Below, piece after piece: positions 8,167 through 64,000 of a stretch of 64,000 nucleotides of DNA. A program made the position numbers and the translations under genes. The stretch is taken from NCBI RefSeq assembly GCF_001654455.1, contig NZ_CP015772.1, forward strand, positions 186,001 through 250,000, given 5' to 3'. The DNA comes from Niabella ginsenosidivorans (lineage in GTDB: Bacteria > Bacteroidota > Bacteroidia > Chitinophagales > Chitinophagaceae). Position 1 is the first letter of the stretch. Each line of letters begins with the position of its first letter. The notes below the pieces were generated by a model, which was not told the DNA's origin, ran no database searches, and saw nothing but the letters and a program-made list of their open reading frames with translations.

Positions 8167-9020
8167 AAGGTATCATACTCGCAGGTGGATCGGGCACCCG
8201 GCTATACCCGATCACAAAAGCCATCAGCAAGCAATTAATGCCTGTTTATGATAAGCCCATGATCTATTACCCGCTTTCGGTGCTGATGATGGCAGGTATC
8301 CGGGAAGTGCTCATCATTACCACGCCGGAAGACCAGGCCGGTTTTCAGCGGTTGCTGGGCGATGGCAGGAAGATCGGTTGCCGGTTTGAATATGCCGTGC
8401 AGGAGGTGCCCAATGGCCTGGCACAGGCCTTTGTCATCGGTGCTGATTTTGTAGGTAAAGACAAAGTAGCGCTGGTGCTGGGCGATAATATTTTTTATGG
8501 AGTGGGATTGGGGTCACAACTGAAAAAACTGACCGATATAGATGGCGGTTATGTATTTGCCTACCCCGTATCGGACCCGGAGCGGTATGGTGTGGTGGAG
8601 TTTGATGAGAACAGGGTGGCAAGATCTATTGAAGAAAAGCCGGCCGATCCTAAATCCAATTATGCAGTGCCCGGCCTGTATTTTTATGACAACTCGGTGC
8701 TGGAAATTGCCCGGAACCTGCAACCTTCCCCGCGGGGTGAATACGAGATCACTGATGTGAATAAAGAGTACCTGCGGCAAAACCGATTGCATGTAGCAGT
8801 ACTGGACAGGGGCACGGCCTGGCTGGATACCGGCACTTTTGATTCGCTTACGGATGCATCGGAATTTGTGCGGGTGATCGAAAAAAGGCAGGGCATGAAA
8901 ATAGGCTGTATTGAGGAAATCGCTTACCGGAACGGTTTTATCAATAAAGAGCAGCTGAATTTACTGGCAGATGAACTGGTCAAAAGTGGCTATGGCGCCT
9001 ATTTAAAAAAAGTGAAGTAA
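8163..9020 (+). CDS. rfbA: Glucose-1-phosphate thymidylyltransferase
   Basis: A 285-residue cytoplasmic nucleotidyltransferase that joins glucose-1-phosphate to dTTP, giving dTDP-glucose, the substrate of the RfbB encoded upstream. The N-terminal signature [13 protein letters not shown] (residues 6-18) and the [16 protein letters not shown] and VLGDNIFYG segments are those of RmlA. Length is that of the short RmlA form. The ATG overlaps the previous stop (ATGA), and the next gene's ATG follows its TAA directly, so translation of three genes is coupled. Confidence 0.95.
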
Positions 9021-16534: not shown

Positions 16535-17724
16535 GCTAAGGTATTTAATGTTTTGATGATAATGGCACAGGCTTTTTCAATGATTTCTTCAGCAATGGTA
16601 AGCGGCGGGCAGACCCTGAACGCGGAGGGAGCAAATAAGAACCAATCGGTAAATACACCCATCTCTTTATTTTGAAGAATGGCATCAATCAGCTTTTTAT
16701 TTGCCTCAAATGTTCCTAAATCAACAGCCATCCATAAGCCAAAGGAATGAATGCTTTTGATCTTCGGGTGTTGTAATAAAGAGCTGAATAACGCTTCTTT
16801 TGCGGCTACACCTTCAGCCAGTTGCTCTTCCAGTAATACATTTAGCGCGGCATGGCCGGCAGCACAGGAAACAGGATGCCCTCCAAACGTAGTGATATGG
16901 CCTAATACAGGGTTTTCTGTAAGGGTCATCATTATTTTCCGGTCGCTTATAAAAGCGCCCAACGGCATTCCTCCGCCCAGGGCTTTGCCCAGTAATAAAA
17001 TATCGGGCACCACGTCAAAATGCTGAAAGCCCCATAATTTCCCGGTGCGCCCGAATCCCGCCTGTATCTCATCCAGCACCAGTAATGTGCCCGTTGCAGC
17101 ACATTGTTGCCGTACTGCCTGTATCCATTCTTTTTGTGGGGCTATAATTCCTCCTTCGGCCTGAACGGTTTCTAAAATAACGCAGGCTGTTGTTTCATTA
17201 ATTTCATGCAGCCAGTCGTAAGAGTTGTAATTAACATGTAAAATACCGGGTAATAGAGGCCGGTAGGCATTGCGCCAGTATTCATCTCCCAAAATGCTCA
17301 ATGCGCCTTGCGTAGAGCCGTGATAGGAGTTTTTTGCCGCGATGATCTTTGTGCGGTTGGTAGAACGTTTTGCCAGTTTCATAGCCCCTTCCACAGCTTC
17401 TGCTCCTGAATTGGTAAAATAAACAGAATTGAGGGAATCCGGTAAATGGTCAGCAAGCAGTTGGGCATACTGTACCTGAGGGCTCTGCACCACTTCTCCG
17501 TAAACCATTACGTGCAGGTAAGCATCCAGTTGCTTTTTAATGGCATCAATCACAGCCGGATGCCCATGCCCGGTATTGGCCACACTGATGCCGCCAATGA
17601 GGTCAATATATTCTTTACCGTTTCTGTCAAAAAGACTGGTACCCTTTGCTTTTGAAACTTCAAGAGTGAGCGGAGCCGAAGAAGTTTGTGCTACATGCCT
17701 TAAAAAAAGTTCGCGCTGATTCAT
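16531..17724 (-). CDS. Class III aminotransferase (acetylornithine/GABA-type)
   Basis: A PLP enzyme of 397 residues. The fold-type I, class III signatures are clear: FTNSGAEAVEGAMKLAK, NSYHGSTQGALS, VLDEIQAGFGRTG and LLLGKALGGGMP with the PLP lysine. Family members transfer amino groups from acetylornithine, GABA, ornithine or similar omega-amino acids; the substrate cannot be fixed here. I start at ATG 17724 (MNQREL) instead of the ATG at 17751 because a perfect -7 promoter element lies between them. It heads a two-gene operon with rpiA. Confidence 0.9.
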   Translation of the reverse strand: MNQRELFLRHVAQTSSAPLTLEVSKAKGTSLFDRNGKEYIDLIGGISVANTGHGHPAVIDAIKKQLDAYLHVMVYGEVVQSPQVQYAQLLADHLPDSLNSVYFTNSGAEAVEGAMKLAKRSTNRTKIIAAKNSYHGSTQGALSILGDEYWRNAYRPLLPGILHVNYNSYDWLHEINETTACVILETVQAEGGIIAPQKEWIQAVRQQCAATGTLLVLDEIQAGFGRTGKLWGFQHFDVVPDILLLGKALGGGMPLGAFISDRKIMMTLTENPVLGHITTFGGHPVSCAAGHAALNVLLEEQLAEGVAAKEALFSSLLQHPKIKSIHSFGLWMAVDLGTFEANKKLIDAILQNKEMGVFTDWFLFAPSAFRVCPPLTIAEEIIEKACAIIIKTLNTLA

Positions 17725-28255: not shown

Positions 28256-28651
28256 ATGAGATTGGGTGAATTAAAACCAGGGGACTGGGTAATTGTTGAT
28301 GATGACGGTGTGGCACGTGAAGGCACCGTTGTACGGGTAAGTAATGAAGAGCAGGAAGTTTGTGTTGATAACGGCGTGCAGGAAATCTGGTACAAGCCGG
28401 ATCATGTTAAGGGCATTCCGCTTACAGAAGAGCAATTAATGCGCCTGGGGTTTGAAAAAATGGACAATGAGTCAGGAAAGGGTGCCAAATATGGCAAAGG
28501 CCCTTTCAGAATAGTGGTACCAGCGGCTGACAATTTTTCCCGCAGTGAAATATGGTACCGGGAAGACCGGCGGCAATATGATCGTCAGATAACCGTAAAT
28601 GAGTTACAAAATATTCATTTACAGATGACTAAGGTGCCCTTAGTGCATTAA
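28256..28651 (+). CDS. Conserved hypothetical protein, small cytoplasmic
   Basis: A 131-residue protein without a named function. The N-terminal half reads like a small beta-barrel ([20 protein letters not shown]), followed by [16 protein letters not shown] and an ending [13 protein letters not shown]. This three-part pattern, with a PLTEE..L..LGF stretch and a C-terminal HxLQN-like helix, is common in Bacteroidota proteins of unknown role, several from phage-like regions. Its frame is clean, the start is preceded by an A/T-rich leader, and no signal peptide is present. It sits where secY/map would be expected upstream of infA in many genomes. Confidence 0.65.
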
Positions 28652-54393: not shown

Positions 54394-55455
54394 ATGACTG
54401 TAAATATTTTTCATGCTGCCGTATTAATGATCTTCTGCATGCTCACAGGTTGCTCCACGGGCAGGCACCAACCTGCTGCGCTTTCAGAAAATAAAAGCAA
54501 TGTTCAGATCGGCGCTTATTATTTTGATGGATGGACAGGGAAGACAAAGCATATCAGGGAAACCTTTAATGACTTTCCTGAACGGAAGCCCATATGGGGA
54601 AGCTTTGTTACCAGTACGCCGGAGCTGGTAAAAAAGCAAATTGACCTGGCCGCAGACGCAGGGCTTGATTTTTTCAGCTTTTGCTGGTATTTTGATCATA
54701 AGAACAATTCTGATGATCCCCCTATGAACAATGCACTCAAACTTTATTTGCGCTCTCCCAACCGTTCCCGGTTAAAATTTTATTTAATGGTTGCCAATCA
54801 TCAAGGCTATTATATTGACCCCCAGAACTGGGACCGGATTAAAAAATACTGGATACAGGCCATAAAAGAACCGGGGTATTTAACCGTGAACGGAAAGCCG
54901 CTGCTGGTTTTTTTTGAGTACAGGAAAATGCTTGAAAATTTCGGATCGAAGCATGCCTTACGGCAGGCGCTCCTTTCCTTAAAAAGTGAAGCAAAAGGTC
55001 TTACGATCGGCGTTTGCGTGTGGCCCGGCTTCAATGATGTGCAGGAAGCGGTGGATTGCGGTTTTGACCTGATTACGGGTTATAATTACCATGGGTCCGG
55101 TTTAACCGGGCTTTTGACACCGGTACGGCAGATGGCAGATGCAGAGTATAAAATATGGGAAGGATTAAAGAACACCCGGTTGCCCTATATTCCCGTGTCT
55201 ACCCTCAACTGGGATCTTCGTCCGTGGAGCGATAGTGCAGACCGGGAAAAACGGCTTGTAGGGTATGGTGAGCAATCAGTAATGCACTCCGTGGGGTCCC
55301 TGAAAAAATGGTTGCTGCAAAATGCCGGCTTTGCAACAAAGGAAAAGATCGGTATCTTATATGCCTGGAATGAATATGGCGAGGGTGGCTGGCTAACGCC
55401 TTCATTGCCTATGAAAGACAGCCTGCTGAATGGTGTCAGGCGTGTGCTGAAATAA
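54394..55455 (+). CDS. GH99-like (WbsX-type) lipoprotein, copy A
   Basis: A 353-residue lipoprotein (lipobox LTGC, Cys20). IGAYYFDGWTGKTK at the start of the mature part, FFSFCWYFD, ITGYNYHGSG and the C-terminal YAWNEYGEGGWLTP match the GH99/GH71-like and WbsX family of TIM-barrel proteins. The Glu in NEYGEG is the likely catalytic residue. True GH99 enzymes are endo-alpha-mannosidases, acting on alpha-mannan or glycoprotein N-glycans. It lies 23 bases after the deacetylase gene. A second, divergent copy follows. Confidence 0.8.
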   Translation: MTVNIFHAAVLMIFCMLTGCSTGRHQPAALSENKSNVQIGAYYFDGWTGKTKHIRETFNDFPERKPIWGSFVTSTPELVKKQIDLAADAGLDFFSFCWYFDHKNNSDDPPMNNALKLYLRSPNRSRLKFYLMVANHQGYYIDPQNWDRIKKYWIQAIKEPGYLTVNGKPLLVFFEYRKMLENFGSKHALRQALLSLKSEAKGLTIGVCVWPGFNDVQEAVDCGFDLITGYNYHGSGLTGLLTPVRQMADAEYKIWEGLKNTRLPYIPVSTLNWDLRPWSDSADREKRLVGYGEQSVMHSVGSLKKWLLQNAGFATKEKIGILYAWNEYGEGGWLTPSLPMKDSLLNGVRRVLK

Positions 55456-55814
55456 CTTTCCCTGCTAAAAGATATTCAATGATCCTTGTAAATTTATATT
55501 TCAAAATAATTGGGTTACAAAATAAGAGAGCTGACAAAGAGCAGCGACAACTGATAATGAATCGGGATGCAAGACGAACGTATCCGTTTGTTTTTTACTG
55601 TAACTGGCCGTCAATAAGGTTCTTGTTCATAATGCCACGAATTCCATCGTTCTGCGTTTCAGAATGATGGAATCCGTGGCAAAATACGATACCGTGATTT
55701 GCATCCGCACAAAACCATTTAAAGCTGCGTTAGTTGGGGATGATTTGATCCCGGCGTGGCATAACATTTTAACCGGAAATAATCCGCATAATAATTTTAA
55801 GAAAAGTAAATCAG
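55456..55814. other. Gap between the two GH99-like genes, with a large hairpin
   Basis: About 360 bases, no supportable gene. An inverted repeat at 55634-55680 has 21-base arms (GCCACGAATTCCATCGTTCTG and its complement with two mismatches) and a 5-base loop. Short open frames around it (55479-55667 and 55664-55921) are interrupted by or built from the hairpin and look accidental. Confidence 0.6.
55634..55680. repeat. 21-bp hairpin repeat in the GH99-like gap
   Basis: GCCACGAATTCCATCGTTCTG, loop CGTTT, CAGAATGATGGAATCCGTGGC. Two mismatches, both able to pair as G-U in RNA. No T-run follows, so it is not a standard terminator; it looks like a REP-type element. Confidence 0.8.
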
Positions 55815-57050
55815 ATGAAAACAATACGTATATTCCTTCCCCCCTCATTCTTCGTCTTTATTTATCTGAATATAGCTCTGGCGCTGTTAGGGCTTTCGGC
55901 ATGTGTTTCGCAAACACATAAGGAGCAGGTTGTAGAGAAAAAGAGCAACTATTACGTAGCCGCGTATGTATGGCCCTCCTGCCACAACGATACGATGGCG
56001 CAAAGATTATTATGGCCCGAAGGTATCGGAGAATGGGAAGTGATTAAAAAAGGAAATCCCCGTTTCGAAGGCCATTATCAACCCAAACAGCCCTTGTGGG
56101 GCTACGAAATGGATAATGATCCCAAAGTAGTGGAAAAATGGATCGATGCAGCTACCAGTCACGGGGTGAATATATTCATCTACGATTGGTATTGGTATGA
56201 CAAAAGTCCGTACCTGGAAAGCGCCCTTAATGACGGGTTCCTTGGAGCCAAAAATAATGAGAAGATGCAATTTTACATAATGTGGGCTAACCACGATGTG
56301 AAAAAGAACTATTGGAATTACCATAAATACGGTAAAGACACCTCCCTGTTGTGGAATGCTGCTGTTGATTGGGAAAACTTCAAAATTATCGTACACAGGG
56401 TCATCAATCAATACTTCCGCAAGCCCAATTATTTCAAGATCAATGGCGAACCGGTGTTTGCTATTTTCAGCCAGGAAAAACTGATGCAAAGCTTTAATAA
56501 CAGCGTGGAGGAAACCCGTAAAGCATTGGACTATTTCAGGACTGAAGTAAAGAAAGCCGGTTTCCCGGGATTACACCTGCAGCAGATCTACGGTGGCGGT
56601 GGCTACCTGTCTGAAGAATCAGGCAGGCAGGCGGCTGACCGTATTGACAAATTAGGATTCAACAGCGTAACCTTTTATAACATGGGTGGCCGCGTGGAAG
56701 ATTATATAACATACGGTACCAATTCCATTAAAATCAGGGAGCAGTGGGATAAGGCAATGAAGGTTCCGTTCTTCCCCTGCGTATCTGTTGGTTGGGATGA
56801 TACCCCGCGTTTCCCCGCCTATGGAATGAAGGATGTGGTACATTACCATAATACACCTGAAAGTTTTGCCGCCCTCCTGTCAAAAGCCAAAAGTTACGCG
56901 GACAGCCGCCCGGACCAGCCCAGGCTGATCACGATCAATGCCTGGAACGAATGGGTGGAAGGCAGCTATCTCTTGCCTGACATGCAATATGGATATGATT
57001 ACCTTGATGCGGTAAAAGAGGTGTTTTTAGAAGGGAAATATGACAGGTAG
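55815..57050 (+). CDS. GH99-like (WbsX-type) lipoprotein, copy B
   Basis: A 411-residue lipoprotein (lipobox LSAC, Cys30). YYVAAYVWPSCHND, INIFIYDWYWYDKSPY-like segments (IFIYDWYWYD), QQIYGGGGYL, VSVGWDDTPRF and ITINAWNEWVEGSYLLP are typical of the GH99-like group. NEWVEG holds the candidate catalytic glutamates. It is longer than copy A and clearly divergent, so the two likely act on different linkages. It is separated from copy A by a 359-base gap with a hairpin and followed by the R1 repeat. Confidence 0.82.
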   Translation: MKTIRIFLPPSFFVFIYLNIALALLGLSACVSQTHKEQVVEKKSNYYVAAYVWPSCHNDTMAQRLLWPEGIGEWEVIKKGNPRFEGHYQPKQPLWGYEMDNDPKVVEKWIDAATSHGVNIFIYDWYWYDKSPYLESALNDGFLGAKNNEKMQFYIMWANHDVKKNYWNYHKYGKDTSLLWNAAVDWENFKIIVHRVINQYFRKPNYFKINGEPVFAIFSQEKLMQSFNNSVEETRKALDYFRTEVKKAGFPGLHLQQIYGGGGYLSEESGRQAADRIDKLGFNSVTFYNMGGRVEDYITYGTNSIKIREQWDKAMKVPFFPCVSVGWDDTPRFPAYGMKDVVHYHNTPESFAALLSKAKSYADSRPDQPRLITINAWNEWVEGSYLLPDMQYGYDYLDAVKEVFLEGKYDR

Positions 57051-58262: not shown

Positions 58263-58940
58263 ATGCGCTTTTTATTTTTTAGTATCTGCTTTCTTGTTGT
58301 ATTTCCCGCCTGTAACACATCCAAAAAGAGCCGGCAAAGCGGCCTGGTAAAAAAACACATTAAAGTGCTGATATTAGGAAACAGTATTTTGCAACATGCA
58401 CCTGCTCCTGCGTTAGGATGGCAGCATAACTGGGGTATGGCCGCATCGGCGGCGGATAGTGATTTTTTGCACCGTCTTCAGGTAAAGATCCTTAAAAAAC
58501 AGCCGGAAGCAGTAATTGAGCACAGGAATATCGCTGATTTTGAAAGAGACTATAGGAACTATGATCCGGAGCAGCTTGCAGTATTTAAGAATGCGGATAT
58601 CATTATCATGAAGATTGGTGAAAACGTTAAGGATGCAGCCGCTGCAGATAGCAATTTTATAAAATATTATGATGGGTTACTGAATTTCCTGGATGAGAGA
58701 AAAAAGGCCAAAAGAGTGCTGGTGGACGGATTTTGGAAAAACCGGAATGTAAACAGGCTGATCCGGAACTATGCGCAGGAAAACCACCTTCCGCTTGTAA
58801 GTATAACAGCCTTATCCGCTGATCCGGGCAATGAGGCTACCGGGATGTATGAAAACCGGGGCGTGGCGGCACATCCTTCAGATAAAGGAATGCAACTGAT
58901 CGCAGAAAAAATATGGGAAGCCATTAAAGGCTATTTTTAA
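58263..58940 (+). CDS. SGNH-type hydrolase, lipoprotein
   Basis: A 225-residue lipoprotein (lipobox FPAC, Cys17). GNS at residues 39-41 (nucleophile Ser41) begins the SGNH pattern, KIGEN and the C-terminal AHPSDKGMQ with His supply the rest. The family includes carbohydrate esterases that remove acetyl groups. It starts 45 bases after the EEP gene and ends 56 bases from the convergent GntR regulator. Confidence 0.8.
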   Translation: MRFLFFSICFLVVFPACNTSKKSRQSGLVKKHIKVLILGNSILQHAPAPALGWQHNWGMAASAADSDFLHRLQVKILKKQPEAVIEHRNIADFERDYRNYDPEQLAVFKNADIIIMKIGENVKDAAAADSNFIKYYDGLLNFLDERKKAKRVLVDGFWKNRNVNRLIRNYAQENHLPLVSITALSADPGNEATGMYENRGVAAHPSDKGMQLIAEKIWEAIKGYF

Positions 58941-58996
58941 GCCCTGCATTTTCTATACTGTTACTGCTGACCTCTTTAAAAGGAAGCTGTATATTA

Positions 58997-59749
58997 TTAC
59001 AATTCATTGCCTGCTATTATTGCAAACCTGTATTTGTCCCCGCGGTAATAAGAACGTTCCAGTTCAACCACTTTATCGTTAGATGTGAGCACCGCACTGT
59101 CTAAAATGAATACGGGGATCAGCACATCGGACTCAAAATTGTTTTCGGGGTCGTCTGGTTTAAAGATGTCCGTTCCTAAGGTCTGTGTAATATGCAGTTG
59201 GCCCAGTTGGTATCTTTGTTCGTAAATTTTATAGTAAGAGATATCTGTAGGCAATATATTTATTTTGGGGCAAAGCGTCAGCGATATATATTTTGTTTCG
59301 TCTTTCATAACAATATCATTGGCACACCGCAGCTGGCGTACCAGTAAAGCCGGCCCTTCTATGATATAATGTTTCCCATTTATTTCAGAAGATACGCCTT
59401 CGTTTAATATTGTTTTCTCAAGGATGATATTCCTGGGTTCAAATCCTTCCGCTTTTAATTTCTCGTGAAAGCCGATACGCGTATCGCCGATGGAACCAAG
59501 TGTCCGCAATAAATGCCGGTCCTGTGTGCGGTTTAGAACAAAAGTACCTTTCCCTTTTATCCGCCGGGCCCAGCCTTTTGTTTCAATTTCGAGCAATGCC
59601 TTCCGGGCGGTTGTGTTACTTACCCGGTAGTTACTGATAATTTCATTTTCAGAAGGAATTTTATCTCCGGGCAAATAGTCACCCGCTTCAATTTTTTGGA
59701 TAATGTCCTGGCTTATTTTTAAGAATTTGTGTTTGTCTTCTGCTTTCAT
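58997..59749 (-). CDS. GntR/HutC-family transcriptional regulator
   Basis: A 250-residue repressor: winged-helix DNA-binding domain at about 8-75 (GDYLPGDKIPSENEIISNYRVSNTTARKALLEIETKGWARR) and a UTRA/HutC effector domain at about 95-245. Such proteins usually respond to a sugar or sugar phosphate. A dyad CTTAGTGCGTTAAA is on its own promoter (59754-59768), 5 bases before its start, and again before the MFS and isomerase genes. It is therefore probably autoregulated and controls the two plus-strand genes. Ligand unknown. Confidence 0.92.
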   Translation of the reverse strand: MKAEDKHKFLKISQDIIQKIEAGDYLPGDKIPSENEIISNYRVSNTTARKALLEIETKGWARRIKGKGTFVLNRTQDRHLLRTLGSIGDTRIGFHEKLKAEGFEPRNIILEKTILNEGVSSEINGKHYIIEGPALLVRQLRCANDIVMKDETKYISLTLCPKINILPTDISYYKIYEQRYQLGQLHITQTLGTDIFKPDDPENNFESDVLIPVFILDSAVLTSNDKVVELERSYYRGDKYRFAIIAGNEL

Positions 59750-59753
59750 AAAT

Positions 59754-59768
59754 TTAACGCACTAAGTT
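59754..59768 (-). promoter_or_regulatory. GntR operator, site 1 (regulator gene)
   Basis: The minus strand reads AACTTAGTGCGTTAA, ending 4 bases before the GntR ATG. Same 13-base core as the other two sites. CTTA and TTAA/TAAG half-sites flank a central GTGCGT. Confidence 0.8.
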
Positions 59769-59899
59769 GATTCCCTTTGTTTGGATCAGGAATATGCCGG
59801 CTGATTCCTGCTTCATAAAGGGGCAGGGTGTAAATTTACTACATTTGGGACGCCCATATTAAGAAATTATGACAAAAATGAATATCCGGTAAGATTGTT

Positions 59900-59931
59900 T
59901 TTGTTTTTTATAAAAGATTATTATATTTTTG
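59900..59931 (+). promoter_or_regulatory. Promoter of the MFS transporter gene
   Basis: TTTG (59900-59903), 20 bases, TATTTTTG (59924-59931): a full Bacteroidota promoter. Transcription would start about 59935. The operator at 59942-59954 lies just downstream, in the leader. Confidence 0.75.
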
Positions 59932-59941
59932 GTTCACGATT

Positions 59942-59954
59942 ACTTAGTGCGTTA
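59942..59954 (+). promoter_or_regulatory. GntR operator, site 2 (MFS gene)
   Basis: ACTTAGTGCGTTA, 6 bases before the MFS ATG (59961) and just after the expected start of transcription. A repressor bound here would block elongation or initiation. Confidence 0.8.
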
Positions 59955-59960
59955 GCTTAT

Positions 59961-61199
59961 ATGAAAAAAATTAAACTTAAATGGATTGTTGCTGGGCTTT
60001 TGTTTATTGCTACAGGGTTGAGTTTCCTTGACAGGCAGGTGCTTTCTGTTGCCATCATCCAGATACAAAAAGAGCTTCATATCACCGATGTTCAATATGG
60101 ATGGATCAACACTTCCTTCCTGGTGGGGTATGCATTTATGTTTACAGCAGGAGGCTGGCTCATTGACCGTTACGGAAGCCGGAGGGGAATGGCCTGCTCA
60201 GTGGGCGTATGGTCCGTTGCAAACCTGTTACATGGAATGGTAACAGGGTTTGGCCAGCTTGTTTCCTTCCGTTTCCTGCTGGGCCTTGGTGAAGGGGGCT
60301 GTTTTCCCGGTGCTGCCAGGGCTGTATCTGAATGGTTTGACAAAAAAGAACGGGCCCTGGCCAATGGTATCGCCATCGGGGGATCTGCGGTGGGAGCAGT
60401 GATAGCGCCCCCGCTTACGATATGGATCGCCGGCAGCCACGGATGGCGCTGGAGCTTTGTATTGCCGGGGATTGTTGGAATATTATGGACGATCGGCTGG
60501 TTATGTATACGCTCCAAAAAACCGGCAGCCGGAGGAGATTTCTTTATACTATTCCCGACAAGAATTCCCTTTTCAGCCGTATTACAGCAGAAACAGGTAT
60601 GGGTATTTGTTGTGATCCGCTTTTTACTGGATCCCGTATTGTATTTTTTTATGTTCTGGATCCCAAAATATCTTAGTGCAGAAAGACATGTTTCCTTTGA
60701 CCGGATCGGAAACCTGTTCTGGATCCCTTTTCTTGCATTGGGCGTATCCAATATAATCGGGGGCTGGCTTTCAGACCGGCTGATGAGCCGGTTGGGTTTT
60801 TCATTAAACAGATCCCGTAAAACCGTGATGGGGATAGCCGCATTCCTGACAATGACGGCGCCTTTTATTGCGGTTGTTGCTTCTGTAGAGGGGGCCATAA
60901 CGCTGATGGCCGTCATCCTGTTTGCACACGGTTTCTGGATTACCAATTATATAACGTCTATATCCGATGTATTTGGAACTGCAGCCACATCAACCGTTGT
61001 AGGTATTTCCGGAACCGCGGGTGCCCTTTCAGCCCTGCTGGTGAACCCGCTTATTGGCAAAGTGGTATCCGCCGCAGGTTACACGCCATTATGGTTTTTA
61101 TCCGGGCTAATGTACCCGCTGGGGTTCGTGCTTCTTGTTGTATTGATTCCTAAACTATCACCGGTAACATTCAAATGCTTGTATCAAAAGTCATTATAG
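59961..61199 (+). CDS. MFS transporter, ACS (hexuronate/sugar-acid) family
   Basis: A 412-residue inner-membrane carrier with 12 hydrophobic segments. FLDRQVLSVAI in helix 1, DRYGSRRGMACSVGVW in the loop between helices 2 and 3 (MFS signature), and GLGEGGCFPGAARAVSEWF are those of the anion:cation symporter group (ExuT type), which carries sugar acids such as hexuronates or galactonate. The start at ATG 59961 lies after the promoter and operator; the frame extends upstream to 59895 but crosses them. The last codons (LYQKSL) are encoded by the inverted end of a repeat element, so the natural C-terminus may have been replaced. Confidence 0.9.
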   Translation: MKKIKLKWIVAGLLFIATGLSFLDRQVLSVAIIQIQKELHITDVQYGWINTSFLVGYAFMFTAGGWLIDRYGSRRGMACSVGVWSVANLLHGMVTGFGQLVSFRFLLGLGEGGCFPGAARAVSEWFDKKERALANGIAIGGSAVGAVIAPPLTIWIAGSHGWRWSFVLPGIVGILWTIGWLCIRSKKPAAGGDFFILFPTRIPFSAVLQQKQVWVFVVIRFLLDPVLYFFMFWIPKYLSAERHVSFDRIGNLFWIPFLALGVSNIIGGWLSDRLMSRLGFSLNRSRKTVMGIAAFLTMTAPFIAVVASVEGAITLMAVILFAHGFWITNYITSISDVFGTAATSTVVGISGTAGALSALLVNPLIGKVVSAAGYTPLWFLSGLMYPLGFVLLVVLIPKLSPVTFKCLYQKSL

Positions 61200-61304
61200 A
61201 ACGTAATGTCGTTCTGAACTTGGTTCAGAATCTATTGACAATCGTAGTTCCTTTTAGATGCTGATCCGCCACCTGGCGAACAACAATGGTGACTTTTGAT
61301 ACAA
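61179..61304. mobile_element. MITE-like element with 15-bp terminal inverted repeats, containing R2 copy 2
   Basis: Ends TTGTATCAAAAGTCA (61179-61193) and TGACTTTTGATACAA (61290-61304) are perfect inverted repeats. The interior (61207-61265) is the reverse of the R2 element found at 37812-37886, and TTCTGAACTTGGTTCAGAA gives an inner hairpin. No coding capacity. The left end overlaps the last codons and stop of the MFS gene. Confidence 0.75.
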
Positions 61305-61328
61305 ACTTTAGAAAATAGTAAGCATTCA

Positions 61329-61344
61329 AACTTAGTGCGTTAAG
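61329..61344 (+). promoter_or_regulatory. GntR operator, site 3 (isomerase gene)
   Basis: AACTTAGTGCGTTAAG, with perfect CTTA and TAAG half-sites. It is 22 bases before the isomerase ATG and just downstream of the MITE-like element. It implies the isomerase has its own regulated promoter. Confidence 0.8.
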
Positions 61345-61366
61345 TAAATAAAAGAAAACATTTATA

Positions 61367-62860
61367 ATGAGTACAGATCATAGCAAACAGCAGGTTCATT
61401 TTTCAATAAGCCACCGTCAGTCACATGCTCCCGCCCGCATCGGCGTGTTTGGAGTTGCCTATCATAAATACTGGGCACAGTTTGAAGGGTTATTGGATGA
61501 CATGTATAAAAAACAGCAACTGCTTATTAAAAAGATCAAAAGCCAGCCGGTTGAGGTGATTGATTTTGGATTAATAGACACCGTTCAGAAAGCGTATGAA
61601 CTGGTGCCGAAATTAAAAGCGGCCGGCCCGGATCTTATTTTTTGCGACATGCTCACCTACGCCACTTCCAGCACTTTTGGAATTATTATTAAGAGTATCG
61701 ATACGCCAATTGTGCTGGTGGCCCTGCAGCCCGATAAGGCAATGGATTATACCCGTGCTTCCACCTACCTGCAACTGTATAACGATGATATCTGCTCATT
61801 GCCGGAATTTGCCGGCGTAGCGGCCAGGATGGGAAAGCCGGTACCGGAAATGATCATAGGCACGTTGCAGGATGATGCCGCTGCTGATGAAAAGATAGCT
61901 GAGTACTGCCGTATAGCTAAAGTATTGCACGATCTGAAAACAGCCAGGATCGGCCATATCGGCCATCCCATAGAAGCCATGCTGGACATGCATACTGATG
62001 CGACCCTGCTGACCACTTTCTTTGGCGCACATATTGTACAATGCGAGGCGCATGAGATCGTATCGGGTTATGAAAACGCCAATGCCGGCGAGGTGGCTCT
62101 GTTGAAAGAAGACATCCTGGGTTTTTTTGATACACCGGATCCCTCATCAGATCCTATTGCAGAAAAACTAAATGAAGCAGATCTTGAAACAGCGGCAAGG
62201 GCTACAGTAGCGCTTCAGCGTTTTGTGCAGGAAAAAGAGTTGGACGGGCTGGCCTATTATTATGAGGGAGCCGCAAACAGCCTGGAGCGCCTCGTAATGT
62301 CTAACCTTATAGTGGGCAACTCCCTGCTTACTTCGCGGGGCTTTCCCATGTGTGGAGAGAGTGACCTTAAGACCTGCTTTGCTTTATTTATCATGGACAG
62401 GCTGGGCATAGGCGGCAGCTTTGCGGAATTTCATCCGGTGGATTTTAATGAGGGCTTTGTGCTGGTGGGGCATGATGGTCCGCATAATATTGCCATTGCA
62501 GATGGCAAGCCGGTATTAAGAAGCCTTAAAAAATATCATGGAAAATATGGCTCCGGCGCCAGTGTGGAGTTTAAAATAAAAGAAGGTCCCATCACCATGC
62601 TCAGTATTAATGCTACCTATAACGGCAAACTCAGGTTTATTATAGCGGAGGGGACTTCTGTTGCCGGTCCTATTCCGCCCACCGGTAATACCAATACGCG
62701 CGGCTTCTTTAAGCCGGACGTCCGCACATTTCTGTACAGATGGATGAAAGAAGGCCCCACCCATCATTTTGCATTGGGGGTGGGGCATCATGCTTCAACG
62801 ATTCAGAAAATAGGGCAATACCTGAATGTTGAAACGGTGCTGGTACAGACGGGGGAATAA
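61367..62860 (+). CDS. L-arabinose isomerase-like sugar isomerase
   Basis: A 497-residue cytoplasmic enzyme of the AraA/FucI-like fold. RIGVFGVAYHKYW near the N-terminus, DLIFCDMLTYATSS, IGHIGHPIEAMLDMHTD and CGESDLKTC (Glu331) with FHPVDFNEGFVLVGHDGPHN and THHFALGVGHHA, which hold candidate Mn-binding Glu354, His369 or His373 and His467. AraA turns L-arabinose into L-ribulose; this distant member could use another aldose. With the MFS transporter and GntR operators it would take up and isomerise one sugar. It has the usual AraA length. Confidence 0.82.
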   Translation: MSTDHSKQQVHFSISHRQSHAPARIGVFGVAYHKYWAQFEGLLDDMYKKQQLLIKKIKSQPVEVIDFGLIDTVQKAYELVPKLKAAGPDLIFCDMLTYATSSTFGIIIKSIDTPIVLVALQPDKAMDYTRASTYLQLYNDDICSLPEFAGVAARMGKPVPEMIIGTLQDDAAADEKIAEYCRIAKVLHDLKTARIGHIGHPIEAMLDMHTDATLLTTFFGAHIVQCEAHEIVSGYENANAGEVALLKEDILGFFDTPDPSSDPIAEKLNEADLETAARATVALQRFVQEKELDGLAYYYEGAANSLERLVMSNLIVGNSLLTSRGFPMCGESDLKTCFALFIMDRLGIGGSFAEFHPVDFNEGFVLVGHDGPHNIAIADGKPVLRSLKKYHGKYGSGASVEFKIKEGPITMLSINATYNGKLRFIIAEGTSVAGPIPPTGNTNTRGFFKPDVRTFLYRWMKEGPTHHFALGVGHHASTIQKIGQYLNVETVLVQTGE

Positions 62861-62989
62861 AAAGACATCAATCAATTATAAATATTCTGATTATTCAATT
62901 ATGAAATGAGCCATAAAAATTATTCATGCCTAAAAGAATGATTATTTGGCGAATTCCATCTGACCATTAAAACAATAAAAAATAAACAG

Positions 62990-64000
62990 ATGAAACAATT
63001 AAGGTTCTGTAAAACGCTGCCAAAGAAATGGGTGTTGCTGGTATTCAGCCTCGTTTCCTGTTGCCTTATTGTAACTGCCCAGCAGCGCATTGCTGTTAAA
63101 GGCAGGATAACGAATGCTTCCACGGCTGCGCCGGTTTCCGGCGTCAGTATTATTGAAAAGGGTACAAAGAATGGCACGTTAAGCGATTCGGATGGAAATT
63201 TTACATTGACGGTAGCCGCCAATGCAACACTCACCGCCACCTATGTGGGCTATCAGCCCCGGGAGGTGAAGGTAGAGGGCCGCACTACGCTTTCTATTGG
63301 GCTTACGGAAGAAGTAAAAGACCTGGGTGAAATAGTAGTAGTGGGGTATGGATCGCAGCGTAAAAAAGACCTTACCGGGTCTATAGCCAATTTAACGCAA
63401 AAAGACCTGGTGCCTATTCCTGCAGCAAACAGCTTTGACCAGATGATGCAGGGTAAGGTGGCCGGTGTGCAGATCACCCAGACATCCGGCGCCCCGGGCG
63501 GCAATGTAAATGTGCTGATAAGGGGCGTTAACTCTATTACAGGAGGCAACCAGCCGCTGTACGTGGTAGATGGCTATGCCATTGGTACCAGCGGAGGCGG
63601 CAATGTAAGCAGCTATGCATCCGGGTCCTATTCCGTAGATGGGCTGATCGGTTCCAGCGGCATCAACCGCATCAACCCGCTGAGCACCATCAACCCTTCC
63701 GATATTGAATCGATCCAGATATTAAAGGATGCTTCTGCAACGGCGATCTATGGTTCAAGAGGCGCCAATGGTGTTGTAATTATCAATACCAAAAGAGGAA
63801 GGAGCGGAAAGGCCAGTATTAATTTTGAGCATTCTACCGGGCTGCAGGAGGTGCAAAAGAAATTAGACCTGCTTACGCCAAGGGAATATGCCGAGTTTGT
63901 GGCTGAAGGCAGGGATAACGCCTGGGTCTTTTTAGGCGGCAAGGCATCAGATCCTAATAACGTAAGAGGCACGGGGCAATATGTAAAACCGGCATTCAGA
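62990..64000 (+). CDS. SusC-type TonB-dependent receptor, 3'-truncated by the window edge
   Basis: 337 codons are visible. Start MKQLRFCKTLPKKW at ATG 62990; a signal peptide to about residue 31 (VTAQ); a carboxypeptidase-regulatory-like domain (VKGRITNASTAAPVSGVSI), VVVGYGSQRKKDLTGSI, a plug with VIRGVNS-like and VVDGYAIGT segments, and YGSRGANGVVIINTKRG. The barrel lies outside. No STN domain, so it is not a signalling receptor. It follows the isomerase gene by 129 bases and lacks the GntR operator sequence, so it may belong to the next locus. Confidence 0.93.
   Translation, partial: MKQLRFCKTLPKKWVLLVFSLVSCCLIVTAQQRIAVKGRITNASTAAPVSGVSIIEKGTKNGTLSDSDGNFTLTVAANATLTATYVGYQPREVKVEGRTTLSIGLTEEVKDLGEIVVVGYGSQRKKDLTGSIANLTQKDLVPIPAANSFDQMMQGKVAGVQITQTSGAPGGNVNVLIRGVNSITGGNQPLYVVDGYAIGTSGGGNVSSYASGSYSVDGLIGSSGINRINPLSTINPSDIESIQILKDASATAIYGSRGANGVVIINTKRGRSGKASINFEHSTGLQEVQKKLDLLTPREYAEFVAEGRDNAWVFLGGKASDPNNVRGTGQYVKPAFR

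Follow-up and report, generated by a model that had tools for sequence, protein, structure and literature searches.

Among the regulons outlined for Bacteroides thetaiotaomicron (PMC3878776), the one predicted for ManR (BT2103, GntR family) covers alpha-mannoside genes together with SusC/SusD, and FucR (BT1272, also of the GntR family) is assigned to the fucRIAKUP operon. For HutC-type members of the family, the usual operator is a palindrome with GT-N4-AC, to which exceptions exist; the GntR motif survey that lists them has one Bacteroidetes HutC protein in its analysed set (PMC4494728), and this branch therefore appears little studied.

Here, we analysed a 64,000-nucleotide stretch of Niabella ginsenosidivorans DNA (the window) in which a HutC-type regulator gene, a transporter gene and an isomerase gene are each preceded by a similar short site. 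Taken together, the comparisons below make it very probable that a local GntR repressor circuit controls a polysaccharide utilization locus.

RESULTS

Three near-identical sites at one locus

The features of the locus within the window are as follows:

58997..59749, minus strand: gntR, HutC-type regulator of 250 aa with a GntR winged helix and a UTRA effector domain
59752..59767, minus strand: operator 1, ACTTAGTGCGTTAAAT, 2 bases upstream of the gntR ATG
59900..59903, plus strand: TTTG of the -33 type in the transporter promoter, recognized by eye, with a 20-nt spacer to the -7 box
59924..59931, plus strand: -7 box TATTTTTG (TAnnTTTG) of the transporter promoter, 10 nt upstream of operator 2
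59942..59957, plus strand: operator 2, ACTTAGTGCGTTAGCT, 3 bases upstream of the MFS transporter ATG
59961..61199, plus strand: MFS transporter of 412 aa (PF07690, E 6e-55)
61330..61345, plus strand: operator 3, ACTTAGTGCGTTAAGT, identical to the consensus, 21 bases upstream of the isomerase ATG
61367..62860, plus strand: aldose-ketose isomerase of the arabinose/fucose isomerase superfamily, 497 aa (PF02952, PF11762; AraA alignment; fold search)
62990..64000, plus strand: start of a gene for a SusC-type outer-membrane transporter, continuing past the window (PF07715)

The operators are variants of a 16-base consensus. A sequence-only reading of this DNA had placed near-identical sites before the GntR, MFS and isomerase genes and had seen no further copy in the window. 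All three were found; they share the 13-mer ACTTAGTGCGTTA, which occurs three times in the whole genome, each time at this locus. Measured against the 14-mer of that reading, site 3 is exact (CTTAGTGCGTTAAG, 61331-61344, plus strand; 22 bases to the isomerase ATG at 61367), site 1 has one mismatch (CTTAGTGCGTTAAA, 59753-59766, minus strand), and site 2 has two (CTTAGTGCGTTAGC, 59943-59956, plus strand; 4 bases to the transporter ATG at 59961). The latter ATG was taken as the MFS start because a longer TTG frame would cross the operator. The distance of 4 bases given for site 1 needs correction, as the 14-mer ends 3 bases before the regulator's ATG at 59749. Describing the site as a dyad is apt for the symmetric arms, ACTTA/TAAGT, but not for the asymmetric centre, GTGCGT; perfectly palindromic versions of this imperfect dyad would read ACTTAGTGCACTAAGT and ACTTAACGCGTTAAGT.

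Between the MFS and isomerase genes lies an 85-base dispersed repeat (window positions 61180-61264), enclosed by 24-nt inverted repeats at 61170-61193 and 61290-61313. It has at least 39 matches in the genome including itself (40 of 69 candidates scored). The final residues of the MFS reading frame derive from the left arm of the inverted repeat.

The shared sequence is confined to these promoters in the genome

Up to three mismatches to the 14-mer gave 7 matches in the window against 4.67 expected, and 18 of 100 shuffles reached 7; this loose window search is therefore not significant alone. One additional two-mismatch match lies at 28639. The longer shared strings are far more selective: the 13-mer would be expected 0.22 times per genome and about 0.00006 times per 1.6 kb, against the three copies seen here. 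The genome-wide check for many unrelated sites, which the sequence-only reading had proposed, returned three exact copies of the shared 12-mer CTTAGTGCGTTA in 5.63 Mb, all at these three promoters, and two extra matches to the 10-base core TAGTGCGTTA, both within open reading frames (ORFs). A 15-base search at up to two mismatches added one genomic match, at 3537513, and the reversed-pattern control gave six. We considered and rejected a wider regulon in this genome on the grounds that this near-match falls in a transposase-like ORF (judged by eye) and that the extra core matches are in ORFs. With 14 bases and two mismatches, 13 matches were counted in this genome versus 16 for the reversed pattern, and four other genomes likewise gave no excess over the reversed control; such weak matches therefore carry no information.

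The neighboring genes look like a polysaccharide utilization locus

The best NCBIfam model for the MFS transporter is the D-galactonate transporter subfamily TIGR00893, below its cut-off (233 versus 395 bits). Canonical L-arabinose isomerase, AraA, was rejected as the identity of the isomerase (55.3 bits versus an equivalog cut-off of 622), although E. coli AraA provides an aligned profile and a fold match, and its candidate metal-binding residues are kept. E331, E354, H369 and H466/H467 are invariant in 26 isomerase sequences and align with the Glu/Glu/His/His of AraA, which we take to bind metal. In most rows of the fold search, identity to arabinose isomerases was 14-17%; the structure model (mean pLDDT 70) reached a TM-score of about 0.4 to AraA, with a Foldseek E value of 5.7e-19. 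A second homologue is encoded elsewhere in the genome (L199, G000:C1:1688485-1689894, at 1.69 Mb; 40% identity).

The SusC fragment scored above the cut-off of TIGR04057 and below that of TIGR04056, and it matched PF07715. In the locus that extends beyond the window (L008), the isomerase gene is followed by genes for SusC, SusD (PF07980), an 842-aa protein that we call P842 (L008:10682-13210, past the right end of the window) and a GDSL-family protein. The P842 family is present in 53 of 80 related loci (best 80 of 533; see below). P842 itself gave one sub-threshold Pfam match, no NCBIfam match and chance-level sequence matches in the PDB. The model of a P842 relative (mean pLDDT 65) has a low-confidence fold like that of clan GH-A glycosidases with a ThuA-like part, and it matches GH42 and GH164 enzymes at TM-scores near 0.25; the best matches are a GH42-type beta-galactosidase and a GH164 beta-mannosidase. 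P842 is a putative glycosidase, for which these structural matches are a lead only. With SusC and SusD adjacent, and with the GDSL-family match and the low-confidence P842-relative fold as its enzyme part, the isomerase group looks like a polysaccharide utilization locus. This genome's cluster showed neither a kinase nor an aldolase.

Upstream of the locus, at window positions 54394-57050, two consecutive WbsX-family (GH99-related) proteins are encoded; after them come an endonuclease/exonuclease/phosphatase-family protein and a weak GDSL match.

The operator recurs before the transporter and isomerase genes of relatives

Close GntR orthologues are rare. They were found in 4 of 394 genomes of the family, this one included; the other 16 genomes of the genus that were searched (17 with our own) had none, the sole match among 298 genomes drawn from the order was the window's own gene, and 2 of 395 genomes drawn from the class had one. 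A single-protein search of genome contigs confirmed no relative. A profile built from five GntR orthologues yielded 80 loci at 40-73% identity (the best 80 of 533 confirmed stretches), including loci from Runella, Dyadobacter, Spirosoma, Larkinella, Pedobacter, Parapedobacter, Cyclobacterium, Sphingobacterium, Pontibacter, Flaviramulus, Arenibacter, Maribellus, Parabacteroides and Tannerella. In the 20 gene orders listed for these loci, gntR commonly either diverges from the series MFS-isomerase-SusC-SusD-P842 or precedes it, and other arrangements occur as well.

We extracted 200 nt upstream plus 30 nt for every gene with a projectable start, which required at least 45% identity, an alignment extending into the first 25 residues and sufficient distance from the contig end; other genes were dropped. 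Among these best 80 of 533 loci, all found through GntR and drawn from related species that are not independent (the Sphingobacterium loci, for example, are very similar), the 16-mer was present at up to two mismatches in 26 of 35 MFS and 20 of 39 isomerase upstream regions, and at up to three mismatches in 31 and 27, respectively. In sets resampled with a first-order Markov model, the count was 0.00 per set at two mismatches and at most 0.2 at three. In the same clusters, no site at up to three mismatches preceded SusD (0/38), P842 (0/33) or GDSL (0/40) genes, nor close SusC genes (0/23 with a looser filter, the strict filter leaving one SusC). Among 49 SusC-labelled ORFs longer than 900 aa, a distant SusC with a site was found in L092 and L093 (Pontibacter, two mismatches) and in L134 (three mismatches); in the two Pontibacter loci (L092:12660-12675 and L093:12660-12675), this SusC gene lies between the MFS and isomerase genes.

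The four MFS regions that had no site at three mismatches differ from the operator at 6 (L091), 5 (L095), 5 (L152) and 7 (L165) positions, and 12 of the 39 isomerase regions also had none. We also took all 16-base windows from the MFS and isomerase upstream regions of this genome and compared them with the relatives' regions at two mismatches: windows containing part of the operator recurred in up to 15 of 35 and 18 of 39 regions, and windows lacking it recurred in at most one relative's region. By this comparison, the operator is the sole conserved part of the transporter and isomerase upstream regions. Two Pedobacter loci carry operators distant from both genes (L091:16378-16393 and 17060-17075; L095:16379-16394 and 17065-17080); one of these lies shortly upstream of an ECF sigma factor-like gene (by eye), and the MFS genes there are among those without a site.

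Of 74 gntR regions, 23 had a site at up to three mismatches, and 21 of these 23 matched best on the other strand, mostly as the site of the divergent MFS gene. A site on the coding strand of gntR was found in this genome and in three of the 74 regions (L088, L094 and L113). A dedicated autoregulatory site is rare in relatives. The sequence-only reading had proposed repression of a transporter and an isomerase plus autorepression: the sites before the first two genes are conserved in relatives, the own-strand gntR site seldom is, and the regulated unit is probably larger than had been drawn.

The orientation of the operator relative to its gene is constant in 31 of 31 MFS and 26 of 27 isomerase cases, the exception being L088. 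This fixed orientation is in part due to common descent.

The operator and the gene set also co-occur in searches that did not start from GntR

The exact 13-mer is present in 10 of 394 family genomes, namely three of the four with the GntR orthologue and seven others; each of those seven holds a single copy, and the 2-3 kb examined contained no homologue of GntR, MFS or isomerase. In G218, the fourth genome with GntR, a 14-base copy with one mismatch precedes a second regulator gene near gntR. A close isomerase (at least 69% identity) is encoded in 3 of 394 family genomes, all three with GntR; it was not found in the 79%-complete assembly of G218, where GntR is present. Matches to the isomerase at E values up to 1e-100 in 12 other genomes, and the second copy in this one, have 38-42% identity, and around these 13 distant homologues no site at up to three mismatches was seen over 1.5 kb, or as far as the contig end where that was nearer.

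Outside the family, a Spirosoma metagenome-assembled genome (G988) has an exact 15-mer 4 bases before an MFS ATG, 12 kb from gntR, and a nearly palindromic, three-mismatch version of the operator precedes its isomerase gene. On a Phycisphaerales contig, from another phylum, with a GntR that is 40% identical, two-mismatch sites (L166:8570-8585 and 8672-8687) lie about 20 and 120 bp before the gene. Relatives from KSB1, Bacteroidetes and Sumerlaeia (L164, L165 and L167; 41-44% identity) had no site at two mismatches. In L040, a two-mismatch 15-mer operator (L040:751-765) lies 20 bases before a second regulator gene near the gntR orthologue, the product of which combines a GntR helix with a Peripla_BP_3 domain.

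The operator follows the -7 box of the transporter promoter

For Bacteroides fragilis, the proposed primary-sigma consensus combines TAnnTTTG at -7 with TTTG near -33; in Flavobacterium, the -7 element was confirmed but no -33 element was found (PMC7366714). The MFS promoter here reads TTTG, 20 nt, -7 box, 10 nt, operator, 3 nt, ATG. The sequence-only reading had put site 2 between the predicted transcription start and the transporter ATG. Of 29 distinct MFS promoters, that of this genome among them, 15 have a TAnnTTTG box that stops 9-11 nt short of the operator; two of the 29 (L140 and L143) extend less than 8 nt before the operator and could not show the box. The box lies 10 nt before the operator in 4 of 25 isomerase promoters, all four from Sphingobacterium. 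No gap other than 9-11 nt was seen among TAnnTTTG-operator gaps of 0 to 40 nt. Operators 1 and 3 of this genome have no TAnnTTTG box at the usual distance. A scan for sigma-70 promoters was uninformative, with 13 found against 9.0 expected. Given a box 9-11 nt before it, the operator would lie just after the presumed transcription start.

The regulator has asparagine at two helix-turn-helix positions

The N-terminal winged helix-turn-helix domain of GntR matches PF00392 (E 9.8e-17; 60.8 bits versus a cut-off of 27), and the C-terminal UTRA (chorismate-lyase-like) domain matches PF07702 (E 4.6e-8; 33.4 bits versus 23.8). The nearest solved relatives, with both domains aligned, are the HutC-type repressors YvoA/NagR (E 7.2e-20) and DasR (E 9.5e-18). 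These proteins have Arg at two helix positions where the present family has Asn, and the operator here is unlike the GT-N4-AC consensus. In a matrix of 65 sites, T4, G8, C9 and A13 are invariant and the consensus holds G6 in 60, T7 in 54, G10 in 64 and T11 in 63, departing from the GT-N4-AC palindrome; the sites were picked by likeness to the consensus, which inflates the information content.

Within the best 80 of 533 GntR proteins, this one included, Asn45 is present in 80 and Asn35 in 78, and the recognition-helix stretch S-N-T-T-A-R is invariant in all 80. By our own alignment to the table in PMC4494728, Asn35 and Asn45 correspond to helix-turn-helix positions 28 and 38, where an Arg that contacts G is usual, though not required. 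As tabulated there, AraR of Bacillus subtilis shares the Asn at position 28, with Arg at 38 (PMC4494728). The exchange of Arg for Asn appears to run in step with the noncanonical operator, and the two together would be well suited to the unsolved question of DNA recognition by GntR proteins.

Gene neighborhoods of relatives hint at a rhamnose-containing glycan

A family whose tested member is a GH106 alpha-L-rhamnosidase occurs in 24 of the 80 loci (best 80 of 533), and single tested members of other neighboring families match GH140-like apiosidase, GH5, GH3, GH92, sulfatase and esterase models. Neighbors in L144 include a rhamnulose-phosphate aldolase/dehydrogenase above its cut-off and a rhamnose isomerase-like protein below its cut-off; both families have members in L127 and L128, and the aldolase family alone is found in L088. 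Two closely related Pedobacter loci each have an exact 16-mer on the rhamnose side (L127:7567-7582; L128:7568-7583), flanked by an AraC gene and a sodium:solute symporter gene, and no MFS or isomerase homologue was found in the 20.7 kb covered. In this genome's cluster, no GH106 gene was noticed among the ORFs, of which the P842, GDSL, SusC and SusD genes were scanned. The neighborhoods of relatives hint at rhamnose-containing glycans; rhamnose as the inducer is suggested, not established, and the isomerase may act on a second sugar from that glycan.

DISCUSSION

In the circuit that we favor, a HutC-type GntR dimer would bind the 16-bp operator just downstream of the transporter's transcription start, and likewise before the isomerase-SusC-SusD-glycosidase-esterase genes and before its own gene, and bound GntR would block transcription. 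The UTRA domain would bind a sugar, or a derivative of one, set free from the glycan, and this would release the repressor. We infer that GntR is the protein that binds, that it represses and does not activate, and that a sugar induces. Because of the gene order and the absence of further sites, we also infer that SusC and the later genes are cotranscribed with the isomerase gene. The regulated unit is probably larger than the isomerase gene alone, since SusC, SusD, P842 and GDSL genes follow it and, in relatives, no site at up to three mismatches was found before the SusD, P842, GDSL and close SusC genes examined.

Three other explanations were weighed against this circuit. The near-constant placement of the 16-mer on the coding strand, mostly near the start codon, would also suit an RNA element in the 5′ leader, a hairpin of the form ACUUA-loop-UAAGU acting on translation or RNA stability. 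Against it, none of 27 single changes at pair 1-16 and none of 16 at pair 2-15 leaves the bases paired, and 3 of 10 double changes do; the inner pair 6-11 alone keeps pairing, in 5 of 7 single changes. There is no Rfam match in 58900-63000 at E 0.5, and the sites of L140 and L143 stand about 180 bp away from the MFS ATG. We rejected the hairpin, which we consider very unlikely, because changes in its outer stem are uncompensated. It is about equally improbable that GntR binds the sites and activates. The direction of control is not readable from sequence; where a -7 box was seen, however, the operator starts 9-11 nt downstream of it, and a dimer bound there should hinder polymerase. Characterized HutC-type regulators are mostly repressors.

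There is likewise little chance that the sites belong to another regulator and that GntR is merely a neighbor. Such a regulator would be compatible with the 51 of 74 gntR upstream regions that have no site at up to three mismatches, and with the sites in L040 and L127 that stand beside the GntR/Peripla_BP_3 protein and the AraC protein, respectively. Against it, the family's exact sites beside MFS and isomerase genes were seen only in genomes with this GntR, and the S-N-T-T-A-R stretch of its recognition helix does not vary across the 80 best of 533 proteins. Repression by the local GntR remains the best reading, because the operator lies just downstream of the presumed start and a dimer bound there would block polymerase.

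The analysis turns a pattern in one genome into a predicted regulon across many Bacteroidota. This regulon links two proteins, an isomerase and a glycosidase-like protein that has no Pfam family, to a single inducer, identification of which would help to assign both. A more far-reaching interpretation, which we offer tentatively, is that the locus belongs to an undescribed sugar pathway of Bacteroidota, with an Asn-bearing HutC branch, an asymmetric operator of fixed orientation, a new isomerase subfamily and a new clan GH-A-like family (P842), directed at a sugar found together with rhamnose in glycans of plants or algae. The exact 15-mer motif string had no match in the literature searched, and among the papers listed by topical searches none was recognized, from the listings, as describing this regulon.

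Of the systems outlined for Bacteroides (PMC3878776), ManR resembles the present case as a GntR-family local regulator of a locus with sugar uptake genes, catabolic genes and SusC/SusD. It differs in its gene set, which leads from mannose to fructose 6-phosphate and includes alpha-mannosidases; this comparison concerns gene content, not operators. With FucR, too, a sugar isomerase and a transporter are under a GntR regulator, but its regulon, as given there, is a single target operon with the full fucose pathway (PMC3878776). The isomerase here is only distantly related to FucI of the FucR system. GntR regulators of sugar loci are already known in Bacteroides, and the circuit predicted here, though it looks real, belongs to that familiar kind.
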